DNA from: a virus
Length of the DNA stretch: 49,300 nucleotides
Strand: one strand, 5' to 3'
IMG/VR virus record: IMGVR_UViG_3300028130_000009
Coordinates: 1-49,300 of that record
The first letter of the stretch is position 1. Each line of letters opens with the position of its first letter. The notes under the pieces are model-generated. The model did not search any database and was not told where the DNA came from. It worked only from the letters and a program-made list of their open reading frames with translations. Shown here in pieces: positions 4,299-43,108 of the stretch. Made by a program: the position numbers and the translations under genes.

Positions 4299-6473
4299 TT
4301 AAATGTCTTTTAAATAGTTTGTAGCATCCGTTTTAAGTCTGTCAGAAAATACAAACCCAGAATTTAATACTTGATTCGTTTGTGTTGCAAACTCTGTATT
4401 ACCTCCTGCTACTCCAATACCTCCTGATTTATCATCATGTGTATCGCCTGTAAATTTAAACATATTTTCTCCAACTTTAGTAGCTTTTCCGTGTTGATCT
4501 GTTTTAGGTGGATTACCATTAGGTGCCATCATTAGTTCTCCTCCTTCTACAGTGTAGTCTGATTCCTCTGTTGGTATGTGTCCTCCATACTTTGCATAGT
4601 AACCCGCATTGTCTACACCGTCTTGTGGGTATTGAGCCATAATAGCGGCGGATTTAACAGCATCATTTGCTCTACCTGATGCTATTTTAGAATCTATTCC
4701 TGCTTCTTTAATCTTTCGTTCTTCTTCCATTTGCTTTTTTCTCTGACTCTTTCCTAAAAAGAATCCTCCTAATCCTCCAACAATAGCTCCTACTCCTGCG
4801 CCTATAGGTCCAAAAGCCATTCCCATAGAAGCTCCTTGTCCTGCCATGCTAAGACCTGTAGATATACCAGCGTCTTTTGAATCATAAGTACCATCACTCA
4901 TTCCATGTTGTGTAGCTAATCCTCCCGCAAGTTGACCTATTTGTCCCCAAGGTACTGCAGGTCCTCCTGCACCGGCTGCAGCAGTTGCACCAGTTGCATT
5001 TGCTGTTGCTGCTGTTTGATTAGCTGTACTAGGGTCCATGTATCCCGGAGATCCTCCTATACCATATTGTGGTTTTGTTTTACCTCCGTTACCAAAGGTT
5101 ATATTAACATCCGCTCCTTCACCTGGTCCACTTCCTTTATACTCGGCAAGCTTTCTAAGTTTTTGGTATGCAGTAAGATCAGGATTTTCTTTTAGTTCTT
5201 TTCTAAAACCATCCATCCCGCCTTCTTTAGCGTTGTTAAAATTATATTTATCTGTATAAGTGTACGTTCCGTCCTCGTTCTTTTTAAATCCTATTTGCCC
5301 AAACGTAGTTTTTGCTGAGTAGTTAGGGTCTAATAAACGTGACGCTAGTTTTGCTGTAGTATCATCTGGATTTCCTCCAACATCTCCATATTGACTATCT
5401 GTATCATAGTCTCCGTACTCTATAAAACTCTTACCTGCTTTTTCTGCTTTTTCTCTTGCACCTTGTAGCGCGTCTTTTTCTGCTTGACTTAAATGTCTTT
5501 CATTGATTTCACTATCGTTGCCCATTAAATCATTTGCAAAAGCTCTTACGTTTAATGGTATCATATTTTGTATAGACTGAGGGATTAAGAAATCCTCTGG
5601 ATCCATTTTTTTCATTCTATTTATTAAATCAGAACCTGCTCCAATCATAGCTGGCGTAAGACCTGTCATAGTATTTACCATTCCTCCAGCTTGCATTTCC
5701 GGTTGTGGTCTTAAAGGACCCTCCATGCTAAAAGCAGGATCATCCTGTAGGTTCTGAGCGTAACCATTCATAGTAGGTGCTGGTTGTGCCATAGCTGTAG
5801 GAAAAAAACTACTTGGACTAAAAGAAGAATTAGCTGCCACATTTTTAACCATATCAGGAGCATGTTTTACACCCATCTTTGCAGTTAGCTTTGCAGTTGT
5901 TTTATCTAGACCAGGCATTATTTTACTTGCCACATTTTTATATGCATGCATTGCGTCATCCCCGTATTGTGCTACAGCATTTGCTGCGTCATCTAAATAA
6001 GGACTAACTGCTTTCATAGAACCTTTTAATCCTTTTCCAATAGTACCTGCGTAAGGTATTGCTTGTAAAGCTCCATATGCAGTTTTACCCAAGTCTCCTT
6101 TTTGAACTCCTTGTGTTACTTTAGAAACTGCACCAGGTAAATTAATTAAGTCAATTGGTAAATCAAAAGCTTCTCTTTCTACAACACCTGCGTCTATAGC
6201 TCCGCCTATTCCGTTTGTCCATTCTCCTCCTGTTTGATACAAATTTTTTGCAACTGTAAAAGGATTTTGTGCAAAAGCATGTAGCTTAGTCATAAAAGAA
6301 TCGTCCTCTGTTGCTCTTATTGAACCTTGAGGTTGTATTGCACCTTGAGGTTGATTAGTAGCATACCATTGCATTATCTCCTCTTGACTACCATTTGTAG
6401 GAAACGGTTGTTTTTGTATTACCTCTCCTCCTGCTTGGTACTTTGGAGTTTTATATGAATATACTTTCTTCAT
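4299..6473 (-). CDS. Putative virion cargo protein with glycine-zipper segment and C-terminal EGGE/FSDRL domain
   Basis: A protein of 724 residues. Its N-terminus, MKKVYSYKTPKYQAGGEV, carries the YQAGG signature, repeated as EMQAGGMV near residue 260 and as YAKYGGHIP near 630. Residues about 548-577 form a Gly/Ala-rich hydrophobic stretch (GAGVGAIVGGLGGFFLG) followed by a highly basic helix, which could enter or span a membrane. The last 95 residues contain VEGGELMMAP, then a HDDKSGGIGV stretch and FSDRLK. From memory, this arrangement is common in crAss-like and other Bacteroidota phages (EGGE...GG...+FSDRL). I infer an ejected or internal virion protein. The start codon overlaps the holin stop by one base (TAATG), indicating translational coupling. 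Confidence 0.75.
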   Translation of the reverse strand: MKKVYSYKTPKYQAGGEVIQKQPFPTNGSQEEIMQWYATNQPQGAIQPQGSIRATEDDSFMTKLHAFAQNPFTVAKNLYQTGGEWTNGIGGAIDAGVVEREAFDLPIDLINLPGAVSKVTQGVQKGDLGKTAYGALQAIPYAGTIGKGLKGSMKAVSPYLDDAANAVAQYGDDAMHAYKNVASKIMPGLDKTTAKLTAKMGVKHAPDMVKNVAANSSFSPSSFFPTAMAQPAPTMNGYAQNLQDDPAFSMEGPLRPQPEMQAGGMVNTMTGLTPAMIGAGSDLINRMKKMDPEDFLIPQSIQNMIPLNVRAFANDLMGNDSEINERHLSQAEKDALQGAREKAEKAGKSFIEYGDYDTDSQYGDVGGNPDDTTAKLASRLLDPNYSAKTTFGQIGFKKNEDGTYTYTDKYNFNNAKEGGMDGFRKELKENPDLTAYQKLRKLAEYKGSGPGEGADVNITFGNGGKTKPQYGIGGSPGYMDPSTANQTAATANATGATAAAGAGGPAVPWGQIGQLAGGLATQHGMSDGTYDSKDAGISTGLSMAGQGASMGMAFGPIGAGVGAIVGGLGGFFLGKSQRKKQMEEERKIKEAGIDSKIASGRANDAVKSAAIMAQYPQDGVDNAGYYAKYGGHIPTEESDYTVEGGELMMAPNGNPPKTDQHGKATKVGENMFKFTGDTHDDKSGGIGVAGGNTEFATQTNQVLNSGFVFSDRLKTDATNYLKDI

Positions 6474-6928
6474 TATTTTTTAATTGAATTATATTTTTCA
6501 AAACCACGGCTACCAAAATAGGCAACATAGATAGTAACTAATAAAGTTTTTAATAACTCTACCCAACTTTCATCGATATTAAAAGCAATATCTAAACTAT
6601 CTAGTATAATATATAAAGACATCATTACAGTTAAGTATATTAATGTCATAGGACGTGTGTTTTTAGAAAGCCATGAATCACTCTTCATGTCTGACTCCCA
6701 ACGCTTAGAGACCTCTTGCATTTCTACTATGTCTTGTTCTAAAAGCTTTAAAGCTGTTTCTTTATCTTGAGCAGGCATAACGTCATCTTTATCAATAAGA
6801 TTCTTTACAACGCCTAAGACACCACTATCGGGTAACAAATCACCAACGATGTCTGCTATCTTAGATCCACTACCAAGTAAGAACTTTCCTACTTTAGTAT
6901 CCTTAAATTTTTTCTTTGGTTTGCTCAT
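6473..6928 (-). CDS. Holin, phage/GTA 3TM-type family
   Basis: A protein of 151 residues matching the pattern of the phage and gene-transfer-agent holin family (Pfam Holin_3TMS). It has a basic N-terminus (MSKPKKKFKD) and an amphipathic region with GSKIADIVGDLLPDS. Next come an acidic helix, the conserved WESDMKSDSWLSKNTRP block at residues 77-93, and two clear membrane helices at about 92-114 and 121-138. The second ends in YVAYFGSRGFEKY. Holins of this family form lesions in the inner membrane that start lysis. The likely partner is the M15 peptidase encoded at 20651-21139, far upstream in the same direction. Recognition of the SDSWLSKNTRP and FGSRGFEK motifs makes this a confident call. 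Confidence 0.85.
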   Translation of the reverse strand: MSKPKKKFKDTKVGKFLLGSGSKIADIVGDLLPDSGVLGVVKNLIDKDDVMPAQDKETALKLLEQDIVEMQEVSKRWESDMKSDSWLSKNTRPMTLIYLTVMMSLYIILDSLDIAFNIDESWVELLKTLLVTIYVAYFGSRGFEKYNSIKK

Positions 6929-9156: not shown

Positions 9157-9945
9157 TTATCTGGCAGATAACCTCATATTAGCACTAACATCATACAAAT
9201 ATAAGCTATTTTGGCTGACATTGTCAAATGAAAAGCGAGAAATAATGAATTTATCTATAAATCTTTTTTGTGTATACCAAGGTTTACTACTGTTTATGTT
9301 ACTTGATATTACGTTTAAATCGCTGTCTATAAACGGATTAGACGTGTTACTAACTAGATCTCTAAACTTGTTTACACCCCACGTACCTTCTCTATTATAC
9401 ATATTATAATTTAGTGTAGTGGCATTGTTACTTGTCTTTAATGTAAGATCTAAGCTACCAGAACACTGATAAGAGTTATAAATTAAAAGGTCTGTAATTG
9501 TTTCTTGGTGTAAGTTAGCACCAGCTGCGTTAGTTATTTTACTTACCCAGTTAACTGTAGAAAATACTTTTGTATAAACGTTTTCTGGATTAAATACCGC
9601 ATCAATATAACTTGCATATGTAGTCTGTGAGCTACCTACCTCATAGTATCTAGCATACTTACCTTGTATGTTATGTCTGTAAAGCTTTTTATAATCACTA
9701 GAAAATATAATATTTCTAGTATTAACCATTACAGACGGATAGTAATCATGATAAGATGCCCAGCTTTTTGTGTCAAGCGCATAGGATAAAGTCCAAGAGT
9801 TATTTATAAAATATGTAGCTAGCTCAGATTCCTGCAGCTGTCTTAAATATTTTACTCCTCCAGATGTTTGCACTGTATAATAAGCTCCGTCGTTTAAGAC
9901 TAAACTACCTACGGCTAGATCTGCTATGTTAGTTATTACGCTCAT
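9157..9945 (-). CDS. Separate C-terminal part of crAss-type muzzle (tail) protein
   Basis: A protein of 262 residues. After a short beta N-terminus it carries SWTLSYALDTKSWASYHDYY and MVNTRNIIFSSDYKKLYRHN. Later come FRDLVSN, PFIDSDLNVI, KPWYTQKRFIDKFIISRFSFDN and a final LYDVSANMRLSAR. This series (LSYxLDTKxWxSxHDYxP ... TRN ... PWYxxxRxxxKFxIxRxxxDN ... R.SxR) matches what I remember of the C-terminal end of the large crAss-like tail/muzzle protein. Here it is its own gene, starting 2 bases after the stop of the 2804-residue ORF and in a different reading frame, so simple readthrough would not join them. The two products probably assemble together at the tail. The 289-base regulatory gap follows. 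Confidence 0.7.
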   Translation of the reverse strand: MSVITNIADLAVGSLVLNDGAYYTVQTSGGVKYLRQLQESELATYFINNSWTLSYALDTKSWASYHDYYPSVMVNTRNIIFSSDYKKLYRHNIQGKYARYYEVGSSQTTYASYIDAVFNPENVYTKVFSTVNWVSKITNAAGANLHQETITDLLIYNSYQCSGSLDLTLKTSNNATTLNYNMYNREGTWGVNKFRDLVSNTSNPFIDSDLNVISSNINSSKPWYTQKRFIDKFIISRFSFDNVSQNSLYLYDVSANMRLSAR

Positions 9946-9947
9946 AT

Positions 9948-12900
9948 TTATGGTATATTAAATCCAAAGTCTTCTAGTACGGTTACAACCAATCCTCTAA
10001 AGTAAGATGAGGTACCGCTTATATTGCCGTCATAAGAATATGTTATGTCATCTGCAAGACTTCCTTGCGTTGTTGTTAAATCGTATGCTACTCCATTATC
10101 TGTTCCTATCATCTCACTAGACGTGCTTGTTTCAACTGCCTGCAAGAATGGTTTTAATCCTGCATAAGAACTATTAGCTAAATGAAATACATGTCCATAT
10201 ACATTAGTACCTGAAGGTGTTCCAGAGATAGCAGATTTGTATGCGTTTAAATCAGCAATGTGCGATGCACCTCCAGTAGTATCTCTATAACCAGATAATG
10301 TAAAAGTACTAGATGCTGCATATGGAGAAGACTCATCTTGAAATACCATTGTTATAATGTTATCTGCATCTGCAAAATCATTACCGCTTGCTACACCAAA
10401 TCCAGTTCTACTAGCTCCTAAAGCTGCATCAGAACTATCTCTCCAGGTAAGACTAGAGTCATTAGCTAACATTGCCCATGTTTTTTCAGAGTTCTCTATA
10501 AGCAAGTATACATGAGAATCATATGCGTCTGAACCATTTGTAGTACTATCTGTGTTACCTTGTAATTCAGTTTGACCTGTAGCATAGAAATCTTGTAACA
10601 CTGCTCTAAGAGTGTCTGGATTTTTTACAGTGGTGCTTCCACTTGTAAAATAAGATCCTCCTGCCATTGTTTGTAGATTTGGTACTGCAGCATCCATAGA
10701 TCCTGATCCATCAAACACGAGCATTATATAAGTATCTGGTGTAATAAACTGACCTGCTAAACTTACAGTTGCTGTATCTATACATATGCTTTTAGAAACA
10801 GAGTAACTAAAAGAATCTGTTAATGACTGAGCCGCTGATAAAGCTGTTTCTGAATATTGAATACCAGGGTTATACCAATACTTACCTGAAGCAGGTGTTC
10901 TTGATACGTTATTATAATCAGTATAAGAGTTAATTCCAGTTCCTTGTGCAGATTGTACAGATGTATTATCAACACAATAAAATATTCCTGAAGTGTTTGA
11001 AACTCTATTTACTCTACCTAATCCAGATCCGTCCCACCACCAGCTGTTATTAATAGCATTTGATGTTTGTTGTAAACATGTACTACCTAACCAAGTACCA
11101 TTTAAAGAAGTAGTGTTATGTATTACAGTGCTAAATCTATAAGTACCGTTAGCGTCTCTTGGCATATAGTGGTACTTTTCAATGTATCCAGGAGTTTGTC
11201 CAACTGAGTTGCTAGAGCTCCACTCAACAATTATATCATAATTAGCAGTAGTATTTGTGCTACCATTGTAAACGTATTCTAAATATACATTGTCTTTAGC
11301 ACCGTCTGTTGGTGTATATATATTAGAGTTAACAACTAAAGCATTAGTTTGTCCCGGCTTTCTTAAATAACCTGACGTAGGTAAAGATGTTAAAGTCGCA
11401 GTTGTTGGATACAAAGATGCATTAGCACCAGAAAAAGTAGTTCCAAAGTTATCATTAATAAAAGGATATACGTTTGTAACCGCTCCGTAGTTTACTTGTA
11501 TAGTGTTTCCGCTGTTGACTTTTAAAACCTGATCATTACTAGGACTTCCTTCTTGTAATAGTATAGAAAGTTTAAAAGAGATTAAATTTGTACTTGTACT
11601 AAGTATTTTTAACTCTGGGTATACTACTGCTCCTGAAACTGCAGGAGTTGGATCTGATATCCAATTTCTTGTAGCACTTGTAGCTTGACCAATACCGGTT
11701 GCACCAGTAGCACTGTCTAACAATTCATTTGTTAAACTGTTTCTAAGCTCTGCTTTTATAACAGAGTTAGTTGGATAAACTTCTGTAAATGCGTATACAA
11801 TATTACTAACTGCTCCTTGTACTCTTCTATAATGTTGAGTTGTTCCTGAAGTAGTTAATACTCTTTTTTCATTTGGATAGTCCGGTTGTGTTGCATCTTC
11901 TGCTACTTGTATACCATATAAAGTATCAATGGCAAAAGACATAGGTGCTGTACCATTTAAGGTAACATCTGTTACAGAATCATTAGCTAGTACAGGACAA
12001 TCATATACATTATATGTAGCTGAAGCCACAGTAATAACAGCCGCGTTAGGAATGTTACTTTGATTACCTGAACTGTCTTCACTATATTTTTCAATATTAG
12101 TTATAGTAGCAATTATAGTCTCTGTTCCTTCTATTGTGTCATCTGATATTGTTGTACCAGAAGAAACTACAGTTGTATAACCCTGTGGTATAGTTATAGA
12201 AGTTGCAGGTAAAGTACCATCTGCAGGATCTGTAAAAGTTCCTGAATAAGCTATTGTTGCATAAAAATCTACTTCTTGTATTTCGCTAAGAGTTACATTT
12301 AATGTTGGAACAGCTCCTTCAAAAGCTCCTACGGCATTCCATGAAAGAGATATGTTAGGTTTACCTGGACATAAATCTGTATTAATTACAGGTGCAACAT
12401 AACCTACATGCGTAGAAGAGTTAGCTACCTGTCCTATTAATTGACCCCATTGATCAAAAACATTTAAATGTGTATACCCTACATATCCAGTGTTATTACC
12501 TTCAGAGTCTACTACACAATAAGGAGTAGCTTCTTTGTATGTAGTAGGTATAGATACGTTTGTATATAATGTAGTATTTAGTTTTAAATCTTTTTTACTT
12601 AGTATTATCCTGTTATTGTCTTCGTCAAAAGCTGTTGTATAACCAGACCCTCCTAAGTTAAAAGCAGTATCATAACTATCTTGTTGAGTATTTTCAAAAT
12701 CTAAATTATTCTGAAACCAATTTCTCATTCCTTTATTAGAGATCTCTTCTAAAGTATCAGATACTACAAACACTTTACCTTGTTCTCTATCTACAAAACT
12801 GTACCCTGCTTTACTAACTAATATTGAAGATAAATTTTGTGTACCTGCATATCCATTTTCAGAAGTTAGTAATTCTGTAGGTGCAAATTGAAATATATCA

Positions 12901-15900
12901 CCTGTACCTAAAGATGCCTGTGCTGTATCAGTAGCTATAACATCTTGTGTAGTAGTTCTAAATAAAGCAAACTCATGGTGTATTAACAAGTGCTTACCTA
13001 AACCTTCTACGTTAGTAATACTACCTCTGTCTTTTGGCATCTCATAGTAGTCATTAGTTTTAAAGACTTTTAAAGTCATTGTTTTATTCTCTTGACCGTA
13101 TGCTTGAGATCTTATTACACGATAAGGAAATTTATCTAAGAATTTATTTCTATTATCGTATGAGGTTGTTGTGTTGTATGAATTTATAGAAGTATAATCT
13201 TCGTTATAATGTAATGCATTAGTATTTGTAGCATCAACCGCACGAGCTCTATAATTGTGAAGAGCTTGTTTCTTTTGATCCTGCATAGTGTTTACACTAG
13301 TGGTTGTGTTACCATTAGCCATAGACCCTACACTACACTTTGGATAGTAAGAATCAATAAAACTATCTTTATCATTTCGTAAAGAAGTATTTGATGAGCT
13401 ATATCTTGGAAAATAGAATATATTTTTAACCGCGTTAAACTTATTATCTGAATAATACCACGTGTTTGTACTCTTTCCTTCTGAGTAAAACAAAGGAGCA
13501 GTTAATCTTACCCCGTACATTCCTACAAAAGTATCACCTCCATATATTACACCTGTATTTTTTATAATACTATTCTGTGTAAGTAAACGAGCTTTATCAG
13601 AAAGAGAAAGTTTGTTGTAACCAAGTGTAGAGACTAAAGTCTGATCATAAAAACTATTATAAACATCTGTTTTATAAGATAGCAAATCAACTAAATTATA
13701 AGAAGGTCCTACAGTAGTACCTTCAAAAGGACTATCTGTGCTATTATCTTCGTTATAATAATGTGACTTAATCTTTCTCCACGCTGCCGGTGTTTTATAA
13801 CCTTCCTTACTAACAGTTGTACCTAAAACAACAACATCTTTATTCTCCTCGGTCATAAACCCAGTATGGTGATCTATCTCACTCCAATACTGCTCTTTAT
13901 CATAGTGTATGATTTGAGCATGAAAGCATTCTTCACCCCAAGTATTGTTGATAGTTATAGAGTTCTTAGTTACTATACCATCTCCTGGTAAGTAAGAAGG
14001 ACTTTGTAGCTGTCTTAAAATATTAAAGTCATTATCAACTAAAGCAAATCCTACATTGTTTTCTATACTTGTAGAAGTACCTGCTCTATTCCATATTTGA
14101 TTATAAGAAGCTTGTACAGTTGTATCTATTGTAGAATTCTTACCAAGCAACGTAGTGTATTTTCCTAGTGCTCCGTCGTTTGCTGTGTCTTCGCTAAAAG
14201 AAGTACTATCATTTAGACCATCTGCATTAGAAATTGCATCATGAGAGTTGTGATTTATAGTTCTTATATCTGTAAACTCTGCACCTGATAGTTTAGATAC
14301 AATGTTTACATACGCACTTTGCACTGTAGGCTTAGTGTTTAAAACATCAAATCCGTGAAAACGTAAAGAGCTTGAATTAATTTTATGCTGCTTGCTAAGT
14401 TCTGTTTCGTTTAGATCAAAACTAGTTTGCTTCCAGTGACTACTTGTATAAGAGGTAGTTGTACCAACAGAATTATGTTTGTTAGTAGGTTCAAGATTTA
14501 AACTTCCTAGTGGAATTAAATGTCCTGCATAAGATCCTTCTTCGTTAGGTTGTAACGCATGAGGCGAACCGTGAAAAGCAATTGACTGATCGTACACACG
14601 AGTGTTACGTTCATCTCTTCGTGCATAGAAGAATTGATACCCCTGCACTCTGTCTTTTAACTCTCTTGGTATTTCTATATTAGAAAAACGAACACCACAT
14701 ATAGAAGCATACATAGAGTATGGTCCATACACAGGCTCTGGATATTGATAAGGATATGAAAGTATCTGTATATCAAAGTCATAAGTAATTCTATTTGAAA
14801 AAGAGGAATTACTAGGAACATTAACATTTACATCGCCATCTACAATACAAGTAGTTTCATGATAAAATTGTATAACATCACCTACTTGTAAAGCTACTGC
14901 AGCTGTAAAGTCCGGTCTAAATACTTCTGCTGAATCTAAACTTGTAAAATCTCCTCCTTTAGTAGAGGTTATTAATTTAAAATCTCCTTCATACCCGGTG
15001 TCATTTACTTGAGCGTTGTGCTCTGCTTCTGTAACCAGGGCTTTAGAATTAGATTCTTTGTTGCGAAACACATCAGTTCTAGTCCAAGTAGTTTCATCTG
15101 TAATATCTTGTTTAGCTATTTTACGTATACCTGAGATACATACTTGATCAACTGTAGGTTTACCGGCTATATTAATATTTTTAGAAAGCATTTCAACTCC
15201 ATACTTTCCTTTAAGTAATAAAGTATGTGCTTCTGTAGCTTTATATGTGTAGTTGCCATTAGAAAAAACACCGTAAGGAGTAGTTCCAGTTACAGTTGTC
15301 GGAAATAAAGTAGATCCAGACAGAGCTGAAATTGCAGCTTGATTATTTAAAGAACCAGATGAGTTATAATGAAAGTCGTCAAATGTCTTAGGAGACAATC
15401 CTGAGCTTGTTACGTCAGGTACAGTTCCTGATTGTTTAACATTTGCAACACCTTCTGCGTCATATGGCTGAGAACTAATAAAACTAGGAGTAGTATAGTT
15501 ACCTAAACTAGCGCTGTAATTATAGTCTGCAGCTTGTCTAATTGTTTTTATACCGTTTCCGTTATTGCTTCCTACTTGATTACCAGAACTGTTCCACCAT
15601 GCGCTAATAACAGATGGTTGTACAGAGTCTGTAAACATTGCTATATCCTTATGTCTATAGTCTACCCAGCTATGTACACGACTACATCCTTTTGTATATT
15701 TTCCTTCTCCCCATCTTCTACCCCATAAACCAGATTTATGAGCACTACTTGCACACCAAGGTTTTCTATACCACTTCCAATAGTAGTGACCTACAATTTT
15801 GCCTGTATAGTTAGTAAGACTATTACCATACACATATTCAAACTTTTGAGCTGTTCTTAGAGGTAACTCTGGAATTGGTGTATTTAGATTCTCACCCATA

Positions 15901-18362
15901 CCCGCTCCCTGATACTCTATCTCTAGACCATCTGCAAGCTTATTGGTATTTTTCATGGTAAGCAAGTTAGGATACAGTGCTTTTAAATCTGCTAAAGTTC
16001 CCGCGCTTATTTGTTGAGGTGTTGTAGCGTTGTGTTCATATCCTCCTCTTCTTAGGTTACCTGCAATATCAATATCGCCTGTTAAGAAATGAGCATAAGG
16101 ACCACTAGTGTCAGTAAATTCTCTTGGATCATAAGTTTCTGCTAAAAAATAGTACCCTGCAGGTACTGTAGGAGCAGCCGTTCCAACGTATAAATACAAA
16201 TGGTGTTTAACAACTTGTCTGTTATAAGAAACGTTATGAGCAGTATTCTTTTTATTATTAGACCAGAAAGACATTTGACCTTTAGTAGGCATACTAGGTC
16301 TTGTGTCTATTTCGCAATCATCCATAAAAGCAATAACAACTAAATCTCCAGTACCTGCGGCAGGTCCAGAGAAATCTCCTGAATTAGACTCATCAGGAAA
16401 AGAAGTATTAACTCCATTTAAGGTTGCGTAGTTAGGCATCTTGTGGTGACGAACAGGTTGACCCGCGTTTGTATCTCCCCAAGTGTCTACATCTAATGGA
16501 TATTTTTCGTTTTCGTTTTGCCAAAAACCCAATCTACCATCTACTCGTGCAGTCTCTCTAGTCTGAAAGTATCTTGTATCTGGATTTATACCAATATCAT
16601 GATTAAATATTCTTTCGTATTTTGTACGATCGCCTGCAGTTATTGTACCACTACTTACATCTCCTAATATAACATCCTTTAAAGGAATAGTTTCATCTAT
16701 AGATATAGGATTTAAGTATTTATTGTTTTGATCTTTTAGAGCAACTGTAACCAGCATTTTATCTCTACCTGGTATGTGATAAGCACCAGACCATGTACCA
16801 TCGTTATATAAAAACGAGATGTAAAAAGCATATACTTCATCAGGTCTAAACCCTTTTTTATTATATACAAACAACTCATTTTTATAAGACCCCTTTACAG
16901 AATTGATATCTACATAATCTCTTTCCCAGTGCGCCTTAATTTTCATAGCATAAGGCTGATAATTAAAGTCTGGATTAGTAGTAAGATTTCCTAAAAATAG
17001 TTTGCTATCAAAGTAAGTAATACTCTTAGCTGATCTATACGTGTCATTTCCTACAGTAATATCTTCTAACAATAAAGTATTAGAGGTTTCTTTACCTGTA
17101 TATGTTATTTCAAAATTGTTTTCTAATGATACGTTTGTGTCATTAGAAACTTCTATTGAAGTATCATCTACTATTTCATCACTAATAAAAGATGCAATCT
17201 CTATCTTTTTTACAAACTCGCTTGTAACAACTCCTCCTATTTTTTTATAAACAGCAAAGTGTACGTATTTATATCTAGTATCTATATCTGTTAATATAAA
17301 TTTAATAGACTTAGATGTAGGAGAATCAGGTTCACACCCGTCGTACTCAGATGTAATATCAAAGTTACTTTGTTGATCTTGTCTATAACTTCCTGATAAT
17401 TCTAATGTAGAATTTGTAACAACAAAAGGACCTTCTAATGGAGTGTAGTTTGTTACACTACCATCCTCTAATTCATAAGCAAAAGATAAAAAGTACGCTC
17501 CAGATTTTAGTGCACCTCCGTTATCTAAAACTGTATTATAAACTATACGTGGTTTTGAAAACTCTGGGAACAAATAAGATAATACTAAATCATTTTCGTC
17601 TAAAAGTTTCTTTGAGGTAGGGTCTACATCAAAAGGCAACGTGTCTATATTTAAAATCTTTGGAGGGTTCTTATCATCTGTAAAAGCAATAATAATCTCT
17701 CGCTTATAATTTAATACATAGCACCCTTTAATAAATGAATCAGATCTAAGTTTGAGTTTAGAAGACTCTAGTATTTTTGTATAGGTTCCGTTTTTGTATC
17801 TTCCTATTTCAGAATAATAAACTTCTTCTATTATAGTTAAAGCAGATCCTGTTTCTAAGTGAAAGGTTAAATTTGCTTTTATATTCTGTACGTTAGTAGT
17901 ATCAGAAAAAACAACAGTAAAGTTATTCGATGGGGTAGTACTATCAGACTGTGTAACAGTAACTCCTCCATTAATAAAGTATGTGTAAGCACCTCCTCCT
18001 GAAGGAAAAGGCAAATCATCTATAATAAGAGTTTCACTTTGTACTATACCTAAATTGTTAGTATATGTTATAGTAAGATTTCCTGTCATGTTAGCAGGAA
18101 TTTCTACATAGTACGTAGCTACTGTTCTATTAGTAACAATAGTATCTGCGTCATCATCTCTAGAAAAGATAATAATTTCATCATCTGTTACTGGTATACT
18201 ACCTATGATCTTTCTATTAAGAGTATGTATCTTATCAAACCCTAACTCATTTGTAACAGCACCATGTATTTTATTAACAAGTATGTTACGAGCGTTTTGA
18301 TATGTACCCTCAAGCTGATCAATAGCGTGTGTATCTTTGTATAAACCTTTGTCTAATTTCAT
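9948..18362 (-). CDS. Giant crAss-type muzzle/tail protein with Calx-beta-like and VWA domains, 2804 aa
   Basis: The first 80 residues (MKLDKGLYKDTHAIDQLEGT, NARNILV, NELGF, IGSIPVTDDEIIIFS) match the N-terminus of crAss-like muzzle proteins as I recall it. The muzzle forms the lower part of the tail through which cargo and DNA pass. Homology-like sequence runs to about residue 1920, with GYSFVDREQGKVFVVSDTLE, EEISNKGMRNWF and DEDNNRIILSKKD. Extra sequence follows: a Calx-beta-like unit at about 1995-2095 (ISDDTIEGTETIIATI), beta-rich repeats, and a VWA domain at about 2540-2804 with MIDAS DGSGSM at 2551-2556. The canonical C-terminal part is missing and encoded by the next gene. The start is 1 base after the preceding stop. 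Confidence 0.8.
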   Translation of the reverse strand: MKLDKGLYKDTHAIDQLEGTYQNARNILVNKIHGAVTNELGFDKIHTLNRKIIGSIPVTDDEIIIFSRDDDADTIVTNRTVATYYVEIPANMTGNLTITYTNNLGIVQSETLIIDDLPFPSGGGAYTYFINGGVTVTQSDSTTPSNNFTVVFSDTTNVQNIKANLTFHLETGSALTIIEEVYYSEIGRYKNGTYTKILESSKLKLRSDSFIKGCYVLNYKREIIIAFTDDKNPPKILNIDTLPFDVDPTSKKLLDENDLVLSYLFPEFSKPRIVYNTVLDNGGALKSGAYFLSFAYELEDGSVTNYTPLEGPFVVTNSTLELSGSYRQDQQSNFDITSEYDGCEPDSPTSKSIKFILTDIDTRYKYVHFAVYKKIGGVVTSEFVKKIEIASFISDEIVDDTSIEVSNDTNVSLENNFEITYTGKETSNTLLLEDITVGNDTYRSAKSITYFDSKLFLGNLTTNPDFNYQPYAMKIKAHWERDYVDINSVKGSYKNELFVYNKKGFRPDEVYAFYISFLYNDGTWSGAYHIPGRDKMLVTVALKDQNNKYLNPISIDETIPLKDVILGDVSSGTITAGDRTKYERIFNHDIGINPDTRYFQTRETARVDGRLGFWQNENEKYPLDVDTWGDTNAGQPVRHHKMPNYATLNGVNTSFPDESNSGDFSGPAAGTGDLVVIAFMDDCEIDTRPSMPTKGQMSFWSNNKKNTAHNVSYNRQVVKHHLYLYVGTAAPTVPAGYYFLAETYDPREFTDTSGPYAHFLTGDIDIAGNLRRGGYEHNATTPQQISAGTLADLKALYPNLLTMKNTNKLADGLEIEYQGAGMGENLNTPIPELPLRTAQKFEYVYGNSLTNYTGKIVGHYYWKWYRKPWCASSAHKSGLWGRRWGEGKYTKGCSRVHSWVDYRHKDIAMFTDSVQPSVISAWWNSSGNQVGSNNGNGIKTIRQAADYNYSASLGNYTTPSFISSQPYDAEGVANVKQSGTVPDVTSSGLSPKTFDDFHYNSSGSLNNQAAISALSGSTLFPTTVTGTTPYGVFSNGNYTYKATEAHTLLLKGKYGVEMLSKNINIAGKPTVDQVCISGIRKIAKQDITDETTWTRTDVFRNKESNSKALVTEAEHNAQVNDTGYEGDFKLITSTKGGDFTSLDSAEVFRPDFTAAVALQVGDVIQFYHETTCIVDGDVNVNVPSNSSFSNRITYDFDIQILSYPYQYPEPVYGPYSMYASICGVRFSNIEIPRELKDRVQGYQFFYARRDERNTRVYDQSIAFHGSPHALQPNEEGSYAGHLIPLGSLNLEPTNKHNSVGTTTSYTSSHWKQTSFDLNETELSKQHKINSSSLRFHGFDVLNTKPTVQSAYVNIVSKLSGAEFTDIRTINHNSHDAISNADGLNDSTSFSEDTANDGALGKYTTLLGKNSTIDTTVQASYNQIWNRAGTSTSIENNVGFALVDNDFNILRQLQSPSYLPGDGIVTKNSITINNTWGEECFHAQIIHYDKEQYWSEIDHHTGFMTEENKDVVVLGTTVSKEGYKTPAAWRKIKSHYYNEDNSTDSPFEGTTVGPSYNLVDLLSYKTDVYNSFYDQTLVSTLGYNKLSLSDKARLLTQNSIIKNTGVIYGGDTFVGMYGVRLTAPLFYSEGKSTNTWYYSDNKFNAVKNIFYFPRYSSSNTSLRNDKDSFIDSYYPKCSVGSMANGNTTTSVNTMQDQKKQALHNYRARAVDATNTNALHYNEDYTSINSYNTTTSYDNRNKFLDKFPYRVIRSQAYGQENKTMTLKVFKTNDYYEMPKDRGSITNVEGLGKHLLIHHEFALFRTTTQDVIATDTAQASLGTGDIFQFAPTELLTSENGYAGTQNLSSILVSKAGYSFVDREQGKVFVVSDTLEEISNKGMRNWFQNNLDFENTQQDSYDTAFNLGGSGYTTAFDEDNNRIILSKKDLKLNTTLYTNVSIPTTYKEATPYCVVDSEGNNTGYVGYTHLNVFDQWGQLIGQVANSSTHVGYVAPVINTDLCPGKPNISLSWNAVGAFEGAVPTLNVTLSEIQEVDFYATIAYSGTFTDPADGTLPATSITIPQGYTTVVSSGTTISDDTIEGTETIIATITNIEKYSEDSSGNQSNIPNAAVITVASATYNVYDCPVLANDSVTDVTLNGTAPMSFAIDTLYGIQVAEDATQPDYPNEKRVLTTSGTTQHYRRVQGAVSNIVYAFTEVYPTNSVIKAELRNSLTNELLDSATGATGIGQATSATRNWISDPTPAVSGAVVYPELKILSTSTNLISFKLSILLQEGSPSNDQVLKVNSGNTIQVNYGAVTNVYPFINDNFGTTFSGANASLYPTTATLTSLPTSGYLRKPGQTNALVVNSNIYTPTDGAKDNVYLEYVYNGSTNTTANYDIIVEWSSSNSVGQTPGYIEKYHYMPRDANGTYRFSTVIHNTTSLNGTWLGSTCLQQTSNAINNSWWWDGSGLGRVNRVSNTSGIFYCVDNTSVQSAQGTGINSYTDYNNVSRTPASGKYWYNPGIQYSETALSAAQSLTDSFSYSVSKSICIDTATVSLAGQFITPDTYIMLVFDGSGSMDAAVPNLQTMAGGSYFTSGSTTVKNPDTLRAVLQDFYATGQTELQGNTDSTTNGSDAYDSHVYLLIENSEKTWAMLANDSSLTWRDSSDAALGASRTGFGVASGNDFADADNIITMVFQDESSPYAASSTFTLSGYRDTTGGASHIADLNAYKSAISGTPSGTNVYGHVFHLANSSYAGLKPFLQAVETSTSSEMIGTDNGVAYDLTTTQGSLADDITYSYDGNISGTSSYFRGLVVTVLEDFGFNIP

Positions 18363-18363
18363 C

Positions 18364-19158
18364 TTATTTTAAAATCTGTTCTTGAGACTGATTGCCCATA
18401 AAGAAATCTCTGTGAGCATTTATATTAGGTATAAGTCTAACCCACATGTTTTTAAATGATTCTACTTTATCAACAGAAGGGAAGGCTAGATCGTTCTGAG
18501 CACTTATGCAATATTGACCCCATTTTTGATCTGCCACTTCCCAACTGAATAACGGATGAGCATACCCTCCCATTAACATTTGACGTAATACATACCACTC
18601 TAAGGCTTGTTTTACATATATGTTATCTGGTACCATAGGGTATCCATCGCCATCAGTAGGATAAGCTGTATAATGTATTTTTATTTTACCTTTTGCAAAG
18701 CTGGTTTGTATTGACCCATTATTAATTAAATAATAATCGCCTCCTCTAATACCATTCTTTGTAGATCTTTTAGTTAAACCGCTAGCGTTGTTACTAATGT
18801 TATTTACATCTACTGTGTATGCAGATGTATATACTTCAACGTTTGCCCCGTTAGGTGACATAGTAGTAGTTGACGTAGCGTTTGGTAAATCATATCCTGT
18901 AACATCAGTTCCGTAAGGCAGTGGTGTACCTGAATACTCTACCTGTATAATGTCGACTAGGTCTAACGGTAATACCGCTTTGTGACTATCTGTTGTAACT
19001 TCTACAGCTTTGCGCTCAGAGATTGATACATGACCAATGTACTCTAATGCTTCGCCTATCCATTCCATAGCGTCTAAGACCCACCCTTCATCATTAATAC
19101 GTAAGTCTCTAAATATTTTAGCGATTACGTTTTTCGAACTTATGTGTTTATAATTCAT
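18364..19158 (-). CDS. crAss-type tail ring/adaptor protein, 264 aa
   Basis: Opens MNYKHISSKNVIAKIFRDLR, then WVLDAMEWIGEALEYIGH, a block I recognise from crAss-like phages just upstream of the muzzle gene (SSKxVIAKIxRDL...W.xDAIEWIGEALE.IG). The middle has DLVDIIQVEYSGTPLPYG. The last third is YVKQALEWYVLRQMLMGGYA and WGQYCISAQNDL, a pattern shared with P22 gp4-like tail accessory factors. It is probably one of the ring subunits that join the portal to the tail barrel. It starts within the stop of the preceding gene (4-base overlap) and ends 1 base before the muzzle start. The family is recognised, but the exact ring position is not certain. Confidence 0.75.
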   Translation of the reverse strand: MNYKHISSKNVIAKIFRDLRINDEGWVLDAMEWIGEALEYIGHVSISERKAVEVTTDSHKAVLPLDLVDIIQVEYSGTPLPYGTDVTGYDLPNATSTTTMSPNGANVEVYTSAYTVDVNNISNNASGLTKRSTKNGIRGGDYYLINNGSIQTSFAKGKIKIHYTAYPTDGDGYPMVPDNIYVKQALEWYVLRQMLMGGYAHPLFSWEVADQKWGQYCISAQNDLAFPSVDKVESFKNMWVRLIPNINAHRDFFMGNQSQEQILK

Positions 19159-19580
19159 TTGATAAAGTTTAAAAATGAGAATTCATCCAATTTTAATTTG
19201 TCTGAAAGCTTTTTTCTATTCCCTTTTGTAGGAGTAAACTTATATACACTTTTATTGGCTACTTGACATATTGCCTTTTCCCAATACCATCTAAACCAAT
19301 GATCATCGGTCCAGTATACTACTTTGTCTATGCCCTGCTCTTTGAGTTTTTTTGTCTCAAAATAATTGACACTCTTTTTTTCAAAATTTCTTTCTACTCG
19401 TTTTATTTTTAGTCTTCCTAATTGATGACCTGGGTAAAACGTTTGTCCTTCTAATATTGCTTCTACTACTTTATGATTAAATTTAGATATAACGTATTTG
19501 TATAATGTGTAAGTTACCTCTGTTTTAGGATTCTTCTTTTTATAAAAAGCGTACATATCTTTTGCTCCATAGTTATTCAT
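19155..19580 (-). CDS. crAss-type conserved tail-block protein, 141 aa
   Basis: A basic protein of 141 residues beginning MNNYGAKDMYAFYKKKNPKT. It has ISKFNHKVVEAILEGQTFYP, GRLKIKRVERNF, FRWYWEKAICQVANKSVYKF and a basic C-terminus. This order (FNxxIxxxILxGxxxxxxxxLGxIxIxR...W.K...NxxxYKFxxT+) is a widely conserved small protein in crAss-like genomes at this locus. No enzymatic motif is visible, and it may be an assembly factor or minor tail component. It overlaps the upstream gene by 8 bases and the downstream one by 4, so all three are tightly coupled. Confidence 0.72.
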   Translation of the reverse strand: MNNYGAKDMYAFYKKKNPKTEVTYTLYKYVISKFNHKVVEAILEGQTFYPGHQLGRLKIKRVERNFEKKSVNYFETKKLKEQGIDKVVYWTDDHWFRWYWEKAICQVANKSVYKFTPTKGNRKKLSDKLKLDEFSFLNFIK

Positions 19581-20637
19581 TTACTTTGATTTCGTTATTG
19601 TCGTTTTGTATGTTTTCCATTTTGTATTCTGCTGCTAAAATTGATTGTGTTATCTGTTGGATCATATCTGCGGTAACTGGGTAAGGAGACTCGTCGTTAT
19701 AACAAGGTTCTCCTATGTAAGTAAATCCTCTAAGCTCTTCTACATCTTCAAAGATGCCTCTTATAAACAAAGACGGTACTGTATAAGCATCACCTTCGTT
19801 AGGATCCGAGTTAGGAATATTTAATGTATAGATTCTACCGTTTTGATAAAAGTATTTTGGTGCGTTAGCATTAAACTTAGTAAAGTAAGAGTATTGATAC
19901 GCCCCAGGAGTAATTGGAATAAGAGCTTCTTTAGTTCTGTTTAGTATACTAGTAAGATCTATATCTGCTTGTGTAATAGTATACACGATGCTTGAATCAC
20001 CAAGATCTCTAGGACCATCTGTTGCAGGAAGATTTAAAGTAACTTTATCTCCTACGTTATATCCTACGCCTCCTTGAGTAATGTTAATACTTGTTACAGG
20101 AGTAGAACCAGAATTTGTTGTGTAAACGATTTGAAAAACAGCTCCTGTACCCGATTGAGTGTTGCTGTTTGTACTTGTTATATTAGAGAGTGTAACTGAA
20201 CTGCCTGCAGCAATAGTACCGGTAACTAGAAAAGTTCCTTCCCAAGTACCAAACGTAGTTGCTACTTGATCTGTAACTGCTACAACTTGTCTAACTTGCA
20301 GCTTACCTGTATATGTAGTTTTAAAAAAAGCTACTTCAAAGAAAGGTACTCCTCTTTTTAACCTTACTGGTTTAGGAAGTATAGAGTTTGATTTATGTAA
20401 AGGTTGATTGTTTACAGCCGCAGAGAACTCAATTGTTTCTGCTATATTAACTAATGTAATAGGTGCTTCTAAAGTTTGTATAAACTGATCTGGTAGGTAA
20501 GTGTTTCGCTCCTGATCTCTACGTATTAATAAAGATCTATAATACTTAATTTGAAATTTAAGTCGCTCTATGTATGATGCATTTGTAGCTCTGCCCGAAG
20601 CATCTGCTATATTATATGCAATTTCATTAAGAGTCAT
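19573..20637 (-). CDS. crAss-type tail ring protein, 354 aa
   Basis: Starts MTLNEIAYNIADASGRATNA, followed by IERLKFQIKYYRSLLIRRDQ. This is a crAss-type signature (MTLNEIAYNI...xQIKFxIxxYRALLIRxD) for a structural protein encoded between the head genes and the muzzle. Residues about 80-120 and 215-330 correspond to family-like sequence. Residues about 125-215 are a Gly/Ser/Thr-rich beta insertion (VTGTIAAGSSVTLSNITSTN, SINITQGGVGYNVGDKVTLN) that looks like a surface domain added to the core. The product probably forms a ring of the tail barrel. A gap of 13 bases separates it from the M15 peptidase gene upstream. Confidence 0.73.
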   Translation of the reverse strand: MTLNEIAYNIADASGRATNASYIERLKFQIKYYRSLLIRRDQERNTYLPDQFIQTLEAPITLVNIAETIEFSAAVNNQPLHKSNSILPKPVRLKRGVPFFEVAFFKTTYTGKLQVRQVVAVTDQVATTFGTWEGTFLVTGTIAAGSSVTLSNITSTNSNTQSGTGAVFQIVYTTNSGSTPVTSINITQGGVGYNVGDKVTLNLPATDGPRDLGDSSIVYTITQADIDLTSILNRTKEALIPITPGAYQYSYFTKFNANAPKYFYQNGRIYTLNIPNSDPNEGDAYTVPSLFIRGIFEDVEELRGFTYIGEPCYNDESPYPVTADMIQQITQSILAAEYKMENIQNDNNEIKVNE

Positions 20638-20650
20638 AACGCGTTTTTGT

Positions 20651-21139
20651 TTAAATTACCATGTATCTTGTTTTTTTGTTTTTGTCTTTATAAGCTTTTA
20701 AACATCTGTTTCTATTACTGTCTTCAGATACATATGATACATGTATCCAATCTGGATTATTCTCATCACCAAACTCCCATATTACTTGATCGAAATCTAG
20801 GTTGTCTTTTATGAATTTATACATTTCAGCGTTTGTCTTATGACCGTACGCATCATCTATATCCATAGCTCTACCCTCGCAGTGCTGTGATGTTTGACGT
20901 TTTTTTCCGTCAATTATTTTACTTGCTCCACCTATTGCTTCGTTTAATTCGTCGCATCGGTAGAATGAATTTATTCTAATAGGACCTCCTACATATTTGC
21001 GCAGAGGTTCAAAGATTCGTTCTGCTATGACTTCCATATTTGTTATATGGTAATCACTAGGTGTGTTAATTATGCCTAATCTCTTAGCGGTTGAACTTCT
21101 TATCCCCTCTTTGTATGATATATGTTCAGAAATTTTCAT
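20651..21139 (-). CDS. Peptidase M15A-like endolysin or virion peptidase
   Basis: A protein of 162 residues with the Zn-peptidase pattern of family M15 (Peptidase_M15_3). It shows GGPIRINSFYRCDELNEAIG at 51-70, SQHCEGRAMDIDD with ligands His86 and Asp93, and DWIHVSY with His133. The spacing matches D-Ala-D-Ala carboxypeptidase or L-Ala-D-Glu endopeptidase folds that cut peptidoglycan peptides. There is no signal peptide, so it needs the holin (6473-6928) for lysis or acts from the virion. Its location among tail ring genes is compatible with either. All three metal ligands are present, so it is probably active. Confidence 0.88.
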   Translation of the reverse strand: MKISEHISYKEGIRSSTAKRLGIINTPSDYHITNMEVIAERIFEPLRKYVGGPIRINSFYRCDELNEAIGGASKIIDGKKRQTSQHCEGRAMDIDDAYGHKTNAEMYKFIKDNLDFDQVIWEFGDENNPDWIHVSYVSEDSNRNRCLKAYKDKNKKTRYMVI

Positions 21140-23856: not shown

Positions 23857-25203
23857 TTAATTTTTACAGTTACAGTTACAAGCTGTCTTATTACAAGCAG
23901 CCATTTGTGATTTAAGTTCGTCTATTTGTTTTTGTTGTTCTTTAATTGCTTCTATCAAGTATCCAGTTAAGTTACCATAAGCAACTCCTAATGTACCATC
24001 GTCATCGCTAACAAGTTCAGGAGCTACCTTTTGCATTTCTTGCGCTATTACACCAGAGCTTGATACACCTGTGTCTTTTCTATCAAAGCTAACGCCTCTC
24101 ATTTTTAATACTTTGTTACCGTCTAATGTTTTAACATTTTCTTTTAATCTAGCATCTGAGTAGGCTATAACATCTGCGCTAGCTGTAACAGATCCTAAAA
24201 AGTTTCCTGGTCCAGAATGAAAATCTTTCCATCTGTAAGAAGATGTACCTAGTCTAGTGTTATTTGCTAAAGTTGTAGAGTTAGGTATAAGAGCAGTAGG
24301 ACAGTTAACGTGGATATGATTATTATCTCCACTTGCAGAAATAGTACAATTACCCAATTGAATATAGCCAGTACCAAGCACTTGAAATCTACTACTAGTA
24401 CCGGCAGTAATGTGGGCAGGAAAAACCCAATGACCATCTTTGCTTTTTGTAGTTGAGTTAAAATCATTACTAGCGCTCTTCCTAGTATAAAGTATTAACT
24501 TACCTCCTCTAGTATCAGCACCTCCAGCCTGTGTTGTACCTCTTATTATAACTGCTCTATCATCAGTACCATTAGTATGAGTAGTTTGCCATTTTATATC
24601 TCCTAGTATTTGAGAATCACCATTTGTATTTCTTCTAAAGTCTAAATTTCCAGGAACGCTATCAGAATGATATAAATTCAAAGTTCCCTTTATAGTAGCT
24701 AAAGTATTTTGTAATTGTAAAATAAGAACACCACCTACGTGATGTTGCATAACATCAGCCGAGCTTTCAGTTATGTATGTATTACTTTGACCATCAAGGT
24801 AAAGTTTTCTAGCTGCTGCAATTGCAAAATCAGTACCAGAAAGAGAAGCTACATCACTACCAATTCTAAATCTAGTTGCACCATTTGCAATGAACTTTAA
24901 TTCACCAGTACCATTGTCACTTATGTAACTATGTGTACCATCGTGATATAATTCTAAATCTTGAGCATTACCTAGTTGTATTTTATCATTATCAGCTAAT
25001 TGAATATTACCATCAATAGTTACTGTACCATCTGAGTTTACATTAAATATTGGAATACCAGAAATATCTGAGACAGAAAATATATCTCCTGTTAGATTAT
25101 CTGTTACAGAGAATACTTGCCCAACGCTTCCTTGAACGTCTAAGAGTGTACCTCCTGACCCACTTACTATGAGTCCTTTTTTTATTTTAAATTCATTTGC
25201 CAT
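23857..25203 (-). CDS. Tail fibre/spike with C-terminal S74 intramolecular chaperone
   Basis: A protein of 448 residues. Residues about 15-100 (LLDVQGSVGQVFSVTDNLTG, SDISGIPIFNVNSDG, IQLGNAQDLELYHDG) repeat the N-terminal module of the 2169-residue fibre at 29310-35819. The middle is a beta-structured fibre. The last 100 residues are a Peptidase_S74 domain, AYSDARLKENVKTLDGNKVL, with the Ser349-Lys354 dyad expected for self-cleavage, then GVIAQEMQKVAPELV and a coiled coil (EAIKEQQKQIDELKSQM). The very end is cysteine-rich (ACNKTACNCNCKN), which is unusual for this domain. The chaperone helps fibre trimerisation and is then cut off. An SD-like AAAGG lies 7 bases before the ATG. Confidence 0.88.
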   Translation of the reverse strand: MANEFKIKKGLIVSGSGGTLLDVQGSVGQVFSVTDNLTGDIFSVSDISGIPIFNVNSDGTVTIDGNIQLADNDKIQLGNAQDLELYHDGTHSYISDNGTGELKFIANGATRFRIGSDVASLSGTDFAIAAARKLYLDGQSNTYITESSADVMQHHVGGVLILQLQNTLATIKGTLNLYHSDSVPGNLDFRRNTNGDSQILGDIKWQTTHTNGTDDRAVIIRGTTQAGGADTRGGKLILYTRKSASNDFNSTTKSKDGHWVFPAHITAGTSSRFQVLGTGYIQLGNCTISASGDNNHIHVNCPTALIPNSTTLANNTRLGTSSYRWKDFHSGPGNFLGSVTASADVIAYSDARLKENVKTLDGNKVLKMRGVSFDRKDTGVSSSGVIAQEMQKVAPELVSDDDGTLGVAYGNLTGYLIEAIKEQQKQIDELKSQMAACNKTACNCNCKN

Positions 25204-27743: not shown

Positions 27744-27744
27744 G

Positions 27745-28074: not shown

Positions 28075-28078
28075 AATT

Positions 28079-41668: not shown

Positions 41669-43108
41669 TTATGATTTTACACATTCTAAGTGTAGACAGT
41701 TTGTAGCTCGTCTAATTGCGATACCACATTCTTTCATAAAGTGAACTGATGCACCATCAACGTCGTTAGCTCTTAAAGAGTTACCGCTGTTGAATCCTGG
41801 AGGTACTGAAGCACCTGCAACTGCCCATCTTACTAATTCTCTACCTTTTCTAGATACCATCTGTACGTTGGTTTCACCATCGTAAGTTGACATGTCTAAG
41901 AAAATCATTCTGTAAGATTCCATTGGTAATCCAGTCACTGGGTGTTTTGGACTATTCAATGCTCTTGCACCATGATCAAATAAAGGTAAATGTCTCACTG
42001 TTACTGTGTGACCATCAATATGTCTGTATGAAGTAAAGAAACCACCTAACTGCAATGTTGAACCTGACCCTGTAACAAAGTTAGAAGGATCTGTGTTCTT
42101 GATATAAGTACCAGAACTTAGTTCAGATTTCATTGCGTTATCGAATTCTTCCATTCCACCTAAACCTGTGAACAATACTATGTTCATGTCTTGAGCATCA
42201 GAAGCACCGTATAATGCATCTCTTACTACTGACTTGATTTTTGTAGCTGTTAATGTAGAGTAAGTATCTACGTTAGGAATTTGTTCTAATACCCCAGAAC
42301 CAAGTGGAATTGGTTTACCGTTGTCGTCTTTCATGTGAATGACACCTTCAGTAGATCTGTTGTATTTAGAATACCAAAGAGCGTATTCAGTTTCTTCTTT
42401 CCATCTTAACATGTGTTGGTACTCTTCGAAGTCATACCATAAAGCAGTTTTTCTACCGTCTACGTTAAACTCAAAGTTTACAACTCTATCAGGTGCATTA
42501 CCTTCATAACGGTAAGACTTTCTGATAAGAGAAATTTGATTTCTCATTTTAGATGGAGCAACCCAATTGCTCTCATTACCAACTGATCCAGAGATCGCTG
42601 TTGGCGCGAATAATTGTACCCAGTTTTTACCAGCTACATCAGATGCTCCGATTGAATCGTTTTCATCTGCAGTAACTAATTGTAAAGTATAAACCCATTG
42701 TCCACTTGCGTTTTCATATGGTTCATCCATTACTCTTGCCTGGATTCCATTCTCACTTTCAATAATGTATTGTTTGATAAACCATTTGCTATCAAAGGCT
42801 ACTTTAAATCGTGTGTAATTTGCACCTGATCCAGAAACTAGTGAACTAGATCTAACTGCTTTGTTTAGTCTACCCATTACTGGATAATCGTACTCAATGT
42901 CGTTGATGTACTTTACTGAACCAGTTCCTTCAGTAAGAAAAGAAAGAGGAAACCTCTTGTCTTCTTTTCCTGCCAAGTGAGTGATCACAGGTGATAATAC
43001 ATCAGGCTGAGTAAGAAGAGCGCTCGCTAACGAGTTCTCATCTGTCATTCCTTCTGCGTTGAAGAAATCTTCGTATAAACGAAGTCTTTTTGCGTTGTCT
43101 GCTGCCAT
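41669..43108 (-). CDS. Major capsid protein, crAss-like HK97 fold
   Basis: A protein of 479 residues, near the usual size of crAss-like capsid proteins (about 490-500). The sequence has VITHLAGKEDKRFPLSFLTE, GRLNKAVRSSSLVSGSGANY and FKVAFDSKWFIKQYIIESEN, then MRNQISLIRKSYRYEGNAPD with FEFNVDGRKTALWYDFEEYQ. This RKSYxYxGNAPxxVVxFEFxxxxxKTxLWxxxE block fits what I recall of crAss capsid proteins. There is no acidic prohead domain in the protein; a separate acidic gene lies upstream. Its leader is shared with the 261-residue gene and it is followed by a terminator-like hairpin, both signs of strong separate expression. It forms the icosahedral shell. Confidence 0.88.
   Translation of the reverse strand: MAADNAKRLRLYEDFFNAEGMTDENSLASALLTQPDVLSPVITHLAGKEDKRFPLSFLTEGTGSVKYINDIEYDYPVMGRLNKAVRSSSLVSGSGANYTRFKVAFDSKWFIKQYIIESENGIQARVMDEPYENASGQWVYTLQLVTADENDSIGASDVAGKNWVQLFAPTAISGSVGNESNWVAPSKMRNQISLIRKSYRYEGNAPDRVVNFEFNVDGRKTALWYDFEEYQHMLRWKEETEYALWYSKYNRSTEGVIHMKDDNGKPIPLGSGVLEQIPNVDTYSTLTATKIKSVVRDALYGASDAQDMNIVLFTGLGGMEEFDNAMKSELSSGTYIKNTDPSNFVTGSGSTLQLGGFFTSYRHIDGHTVTVRHLPLFDHGARALNSPKHPVTGLPMESYRMIFLDMSTYDGETNVQMVSRKGRELVRWAVAGASVPPGFNSGNSLRANDVDGASVHFMKECGIAIRRATNCLHLECVKS

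Follow-up and report, generated by a model that had tools for sequence, protein, structure and literature searches.

In the DNA analysed here (the window, a single metagenomic fragment recorded in IMG/VR as a linear stretch of 49.3 kb), which by its gene content belongs to a marine crAss-like phage, the muzzle protein is divided between two neighbouring genes, and the longer product carries an extra 878 residues that end in a VWA-like domain. The standard Crassvirus muzzle is a single polypeptide while that of the window is made of two ORFs, and the window protein is hence best regarded as a known structural protein in a two-chain form. The reading preferred here, to which a probability of about 0.78 can be assigned, is that the two-chain muzzle resulted from the insertion of an adhesin-type module at a loop of the beta-propeller, with the C-terminal part being kept as a reinitiated gene of its own.

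The two muzzle genes and their surroundings

The minus strand of the window carries a crAss-like structural block consisting of TerL, portal, the Crassvirus major capsid protein (MCP; 41669..43108, PF23898, E 2e-87), ring protein 2 (19573..20637, PF25702, E 3e-18) and ring protein 1 (18364..19158, PF24228, E 7e-49), followed by the muzzle region; the Crassvirales marker genes phrog_6547 and phrog_6681 are present besides the three Pfam families. The ring protein 1 gene lies directly upstream of the long muzzle ORF, at a gap of one base. On the same strand, an M15-type peptidase/endolysin gene (20651-21139) stands directly upstream of ring protein 2, separate from the holin (6473-6928) and from a second endolysin-like gene (4299-6473). 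Further away on this strand, two tail-fibre-like proteins (23857-25203 and 29310-35819) have their first ~150 residues in common (48% identity), the shorter one ending in an S74 chaperone domain, and three paralogous proteins of ~410 aa (25225-29308) are 28-38% identical to one another, with laminin-G/ConA-like lectin domains above the cut-off in the first two.

The long muzzle ORF (9948-18362, minus strand) encodes 2804 aa and the short one (9157-9945, minus strand) 262 aa, the coordinates, lengths, strand and 2-base gap being exactly those of the original prediction. The muzzle core of the long ORF, residues 1-1926 (12585..18362, minus strand), was recognised by its match to the Fpv muzzle family phrog_15100 (E 3e-40) and by colinear alignment with reference muzzles. 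It runs to RIILSKKD (residue 1925), its last muzzle segment being DEDNNRIILSKKD at residues ~1912-1925, in good agreement with the predicted end of the muzzle pattern at about residue 1920; the similarity of the long ORF to Flavobacterium phage muzzles stops at residue ~1935. Pfam gave no match to this ORF, PF25731 (crAss_MUZ) included, a family that is matched by the relative L143 at 1e-15.

The 262-aa product (the C-chain) holds the end of the propeller and the conserved muzzle C-terminus. The crAss_MUZ_C domain (PF25729, E 2.4e-7) was found by Pfam in its residues 108-193 (9367..9624, minus strand) with 31.5 bits against a curated cut-off of 27, the C-terminal end of phrog_15100 matched at E 1.5e-12, and tblastn aligned the ORF with the C-terminal region of the one-ORF muzzle of Flavobacterium (Fpv) phages (E 1e-14). 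The segment of LSYxLDTKxWxSxHDYxP type that was foreseen as the opening of a separate gene does lie on that gene, as LSYALDTKSWASYHDYYP at residues 53-70, but not at its start, about 50 residues preceding it that are partly conserved in the split relatives L117 and L118. The muzzle parts lie 926 residues apart, of which 878 belong to the long ORF, where the original prediction gave about 880, and 48 to the short ORF. When IMG/VR was scanned with each window ORF by itself, zero relatives were returned, and a sequence search of the PDB gave no match to the short ORF and only chance matches to the long one.

Position of the break in the muzzle fold

Ten reference muzzles from phage records were checked first (crAss001 gp44, cr127, cr107, R. 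jaberico, ctcc615, p-crAssphage, Lbo-JY46, csAssE, Fpv1 and FpV4), and every one of them is a single ORF colinear with both window parts. Between these parts there is 1 residue in crAss001, 5-6 in cr127, cr107, R. jaberico and ctcc615, 19 in p-crAssphage, 33 in Lbo-JY46, 40 in csAssE, 198 in Fpv1 and 361 in FpV4, and the insert of the window has no muzzle counterpart in this alignment. The original proposal, that a domain was inserted and the gene was split, is supported by this absence together with the mapping of the short product to the muzzle C-terminus; neither of the contrary findings named in advance, a 262-residue protein devoid of a muzzle-C match or homologues holding the inserted region in one intact protein, was obtained.

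The site is equivalent to residue ~1200 of crAss001 gp44. The IG2/crass region of the phicrAss001 muzzle is given as residues 318-1021, with the propeller around it, in PMC10172136. Judged from the aligned sequences, the break is therefore in the beta-propeller behind the crass domain and not in the distal crass domain itself. Residues 780-1281 of the intact relative L119 were modelled (mean pLDDT 61), and the model matched the phicrAss001 muzzle (7qok) in Foldseek at E 3e-17, along with other podovirus nozzles, so that the seven-bladed propeller fold was recovered in this one relative. At the site, the 46-residue spacer of L119 is modelled with low confidence as a loop that joins strands 236-242 and 288-293; these two strands form a blade-like set with strands 225-231 and 298-303.

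The insert and its VWA-like domain

The insert with its stop codon (9948..12584, minus strand) constitutes the C-terminal end of the long chain, residues 1927-2804, and shorter homologues of it are found in L117 and L118 (568 and 551 aa), which match it at both of its ends. An Ig-like stretch at residues ~1995-2115 (12018..12380, minus strand), recognised by eye, had been described as a Calx-beta-like unit; this identity was set aside as unsupported, with Calx-beta unmatched in Pfam and a LapA domain at E 0.1 below the cut-off.

The VWA domain expected in the same region has support from its motif. Directly before the stop, residues ~2530-2804 (9951..10775, minus strand) contain a MIDAS-like DGSGSM at residues 2551-2556 (10695..10712), and the D-x-S-G-S-M pattern, which agrees with the DxSxS of MIDAS sites, is invariant in 14/14 aligned sequences. 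The Pfam VWA profile gave nothing at E 10 for residues 2515-2804, and the last ~275 residues are accordingly named VWA-like only. AlphaFold predicted an alpha/beta domain (pLDDT 79, pTM 0.79), with a weak fold signal in Foldseek: a CE2 esterase (E 0.004), a BRCA1-A complex chain (0.006), the VWA of Ku80 (0.018) and vWF A3 (0.22), with CE2 slightly above the VWA folds and zero matches at E 0.001 or better. The VWA-like family was found in 51 IMG/VR loci, both in split muzzles and in other proteins, and its tested members had no significant Pfam or PHROG matches. In all 84 ORFs that carry the domain, the stop codon follows within 0-12 residues, which suggests that the VWA-like module brought its own stop codon into the muzzle.

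As separate observations, the family (L145-L191; motif LQDFYATGGTE) is always C-terminal in many marine phage proteins, and a 663-aa tail-region protein of the window (21544-23535, minus strand) has a VWA-like start of its own with DYTGSM at residue 96; Pfam VWA reached E 0.002 there, below the cut-off, and BLAST detected no similarity to the muzzle VWA-like domain.

The domain types of the insert would argue for an adhesin. An enzymatic arm, that is, a glycan esterase or depolymerase which cuts a host or capsule glycan within the same split architecture, is rather unlikely: CE2 acetyl xylan esterases are the top Foldseek matches of the VWA-like model (3u37, E 4e-3, prob 0.89), and an ORF between the muzzle parts of ctfjg026 is annotated as 'putative glycosidase', but the TM-scores to the esterases are just ~0.37, the invariant D-x-S-G-S-M is a VWA/MIDAS motif, and adhesion repeats fill the site in other phages.

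Recurrence and origin of the split

An MCP-based scan of IMG/VR gave many marine relatives, among them nine at 69-77% MCP identity to the window with an intact muzzle ORF, and a muzzle-based scan gave 24 loci. With extra scans by C-parts from other lineages and with profile searches, 138 IMG/VR loci were scored, of which 98 are split at the site and 40 intact (6 further ones are incomplete), in a sample that is biased, because the queries included split C-parts, and redundant, some contigs being counted twice; collapse at 75% identity and inclusion of the references left 46 split and 43 intact rows. The split is a recurrent architecture and not unique to the window. Intact muzzles mostly have spacers of 4-71 aa, the exceptions being 149, 351 and 716; those of split muzzles range from 120 to >1000 aa, and in some of them the parts are separated by one to four ORFs. 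The suggestion that the insertion forced the split does not hold strictly, since a large insert is accommodated in an unbroken ORF both in FpV4 (361 aa) and in L316 (716 aa, with Fib_succ_major repeats).

In other lineages the site carries diverse, mutually unrelated inserts of adhesion type, among them cadherin and DUF5977 modules (L138, L284, L288), Big_9/cadherin-like ones (phi13:2, L143) and TSP3 repeats (L239). The cultured Cellulophaga phages phi13:2, phi18:3, phi19:3 and phi46:3 are split, both products being annotated as structural in all four (in phi13:2, phi19:3 and phi46:3 by similarity to phi8:3), and phi38:1, elemoF and Gundel_1, the last of the same family as phi13:2, are intact. 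Since many other Bacteroidota phages are split at this very site, each with modules of its own, the site seems to be used again and again as a port through which the binding target of the tail tip can be altered. At even odds, a wider claim can be made, namely that this propeller loop is a general and repeatedly broken port of Bacteroidota phages, in which whole genes or free-ended adhesion modules of the VWA-like, cadherin, thrombospondin and DUF5977 kinds are exchanged, that a two-chain muzzle with a separate ring-side C-subunit is the usual result, and that this provides a modular second receptor-binding system at the tail tip besides the tail fibres.

Several individual loci deserve a record. 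The insert of L236 in this tail-tip protein consists of ten thrombospondin type 1 (TSP1) repeats (L236:5991-9440, E 7e-120), and L231 has a separate TSP1 ORF at the same muzzle site. A 1313-aa ORF between muzzle halves (L303:5947-9885) contains 15 DUF5977 units and a repeat of SprB, a gliding-motility adhesin of Bacteroidota, and a 435-aa ORF in the same position (L194:4671-5978, on a contig shared with L308), with overlapping start and stop codons, has no Pfam matches above the cut-off. In L146:996-6810 and L148:1204-6786 an intact muzzle precedes a VWA-like ORF, with crAss_MUZ_C found by Pfam in the L146 ORF and the C-part profile matched in both loci; an Ig/cadherin-type repeat appears by eye to be broken between the muzzle and VWA-like ORFs, which in L148 are in the same frame, a stop codon and one codon lying between them. 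The muzzle region of Maribacter phage Panino (L198:3777-7690) is annotated as two proteins, and was rejected as a split case, its break being upstream of the site and frameshift-like in continuous coding.

The distribution of the split was followed on two unrooted trees, with 6 changes between the split and intact states on 39 rows, 3 of them forced by well supported branches, and with 9 changes, 5 of them so forced, on a quick tree of 89 rows; such unrooted counts do not distinguish fission from fusion. The AU test rejected the union of every split row in a single clade (p 2.5e-47), and with it a single origin of all splits, which indicates at least two independent origins, and more than two are likely; a clade that unites the window group, L138 and L194 was not rejected (p 0.36). 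That the split was instead ancestral in crAss-type phages, with repeated fusion in place of repeated fission, would be compatible with the unrooted change counts, which do not separate gain from loss, and with the monophyly of the crAss-type split rows alone, which survives the AU test (p 0.36-0.45); it is nevertheless improbable, for the ten first references and the window MCP relatives at 69-77% are all intact, and the best trees require 6 and 9 changes.

The junction and the proposed two-chain assembly

At the junction, TAA-AT-ATG (9943..9950, minus strand), the stop of the long ORF is followed by 2 bases and the start of the short one (...ATA CCA TAA at ATG AGC...). The equivalent junctions are TAA-TT-ATG in L117 and TAA-TAATT-ATG in L118, and with these gaps of 2, 2 and 5 bases the three phages share one frame of the C-ORF relative to the N-ORF. 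Over the 58 abutting splits, the C-ORF starts within a few bases of the N-ORF stop, most commonly at a gap of 1 base, and all three relative frames are represented, a pattern in keeping with reinitiation rather than with a conserved frameshift. The short gaps of the window and its two closest relatives might be taken to mean that one polypeptide is made by programmed frameshifting or stop readthrough, but this is very improbable: inspection of the junction found no X XXY YYZ heptamer, the C-frame of the window is open for only 4 codons ahead of its ATG (open frame 266 aa) and that of L118 opens at the stop itself, the gap frames vary over the abutting splits, and whole ORFs lie between the parts in many others. 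Frameshifting at the junction was rejected on the missing slippery heptamer and the unconserved gap frames.

In a single linear metagenomic record of 49.3 kb one might suspect that the break arose in sequencing or assembly, or that the muzzle gene is decaying. This can be dismissed, since the same split with homologous inserts occurs in the independent contigs L117 and L118 (whose flanking muzzle segment shares 72-73% identity with that of the window, the MCP on the L117 contig being 87% identical), their C-chains are 63-68% identical to that of the window with the last 34 residues invariant, and cultured phages and dozens of contigs are split at the same site.

The sequences themselves show that the split is colinear, that the parts are homologous to intact muzzles, that the break recurs and that the module is C-terminal. 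The insertion reading, which combines these comparisons with homology and domain type, can be outlined as follows. An ancestor would have acquired a C-terminal adhesin-type module, composed of an Ig-like linker and a VWA-like domain, which probably came with its native stop codon and entered the loop between two strands of one blade of the muzzle propeller; most simply, an adhesin gene would have contributed its 3' end to this loop, stop codon included. The last propeller strands and the conserved C-terminus would then persist as a separate gene starting 2 bases past the stop, probably translated by termination-reinitiation, and we infer that the two chains complement each other and rejoin as one propeller within the hexameric muzzle. 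Should they reassemble in this manner, the adhesin would hang from the C-terminus of the long chain by one end only, not tied at both, and the arm would probably bind host surface glycans or proteins ahead of the muzzle opening. A plausible advantage of such a free arm is that the ends of the insert need not sit side by side in the loop.

Comparison with known systems

The muzzle gates the ejection of DNA and cargo in crAss-like phages. If the above reading is true, adhesion arms that vary while their site is conserved would be a candidate surface sensor physically attached to this gate. The two-chain muzzle would also explain why the halves are stored in databases as separate, apparently unrelated structural proteins and in separate PHROG families, so that classification based on the muzzle can miss split ones, and it may be tested in cultured carriers (phi13:2, phi46:3) and their intact cultured relatives (phi38:1, Gundel_1). 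No paper that came up in a literature search, for which most subscription papers were out of reach, describes a split muzzle.

The phicrAss001 gp44 (7qok, 7qol) is colinear and homologous with the window proteins in the core, propeller and C-terminus, and both follow ring protein 1; however, gp44 is one chain of 1371 aa with 1 residue at the site, whereas the window has two chains and 926 residues. In the accessible part of PMC10172136, muzzle length variation is placed in the crass and IG2 regions and not at the propeller site, and a split is not mentioned.

A similar arrangement is that of the Pachyviridae phage phi13:2, where, like in the window, a muzzle N-part (gp120, 1613 aa with an Ig/cadherin-type insert) is followed by a separate C-part (gp121, 241 aa), as is also the case in phi19:3, phi18:3 and phi46:3, and such Cellulophaga-type halves are reflected in phrog_14478 and phrog_18548. 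The phi13:2 pair differs in its distant lineage and in its insert, which has no VWA-like domain, and is annotated as two unrelated structural proteins. In the Flavobacterium phages FpV4 and Fpv1, inserts of 361 and 198 aa occupy the identical site of the muzzle (that of FpV4 without Pfam-recognised domains), but in a single ORF. The T7-type nozzle proteins have the propeller and ring-joining architecture in common with the muzzle, several podovirus nozzles being among the Foldseek matches, and we know of no deposited T7-type nozzle chain with an adhesin insert and split of the window kind.

Outside phages, a parallel is the insertional fission of mitochondrial cox2, where an inserted sequence breaks the gene into two complementary coding genes and a homing-type nuclease is suspected (PMC5374615). 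It works alike, but in an unrelated gene and organism, whereas the site in the window is held by adhesion modules.
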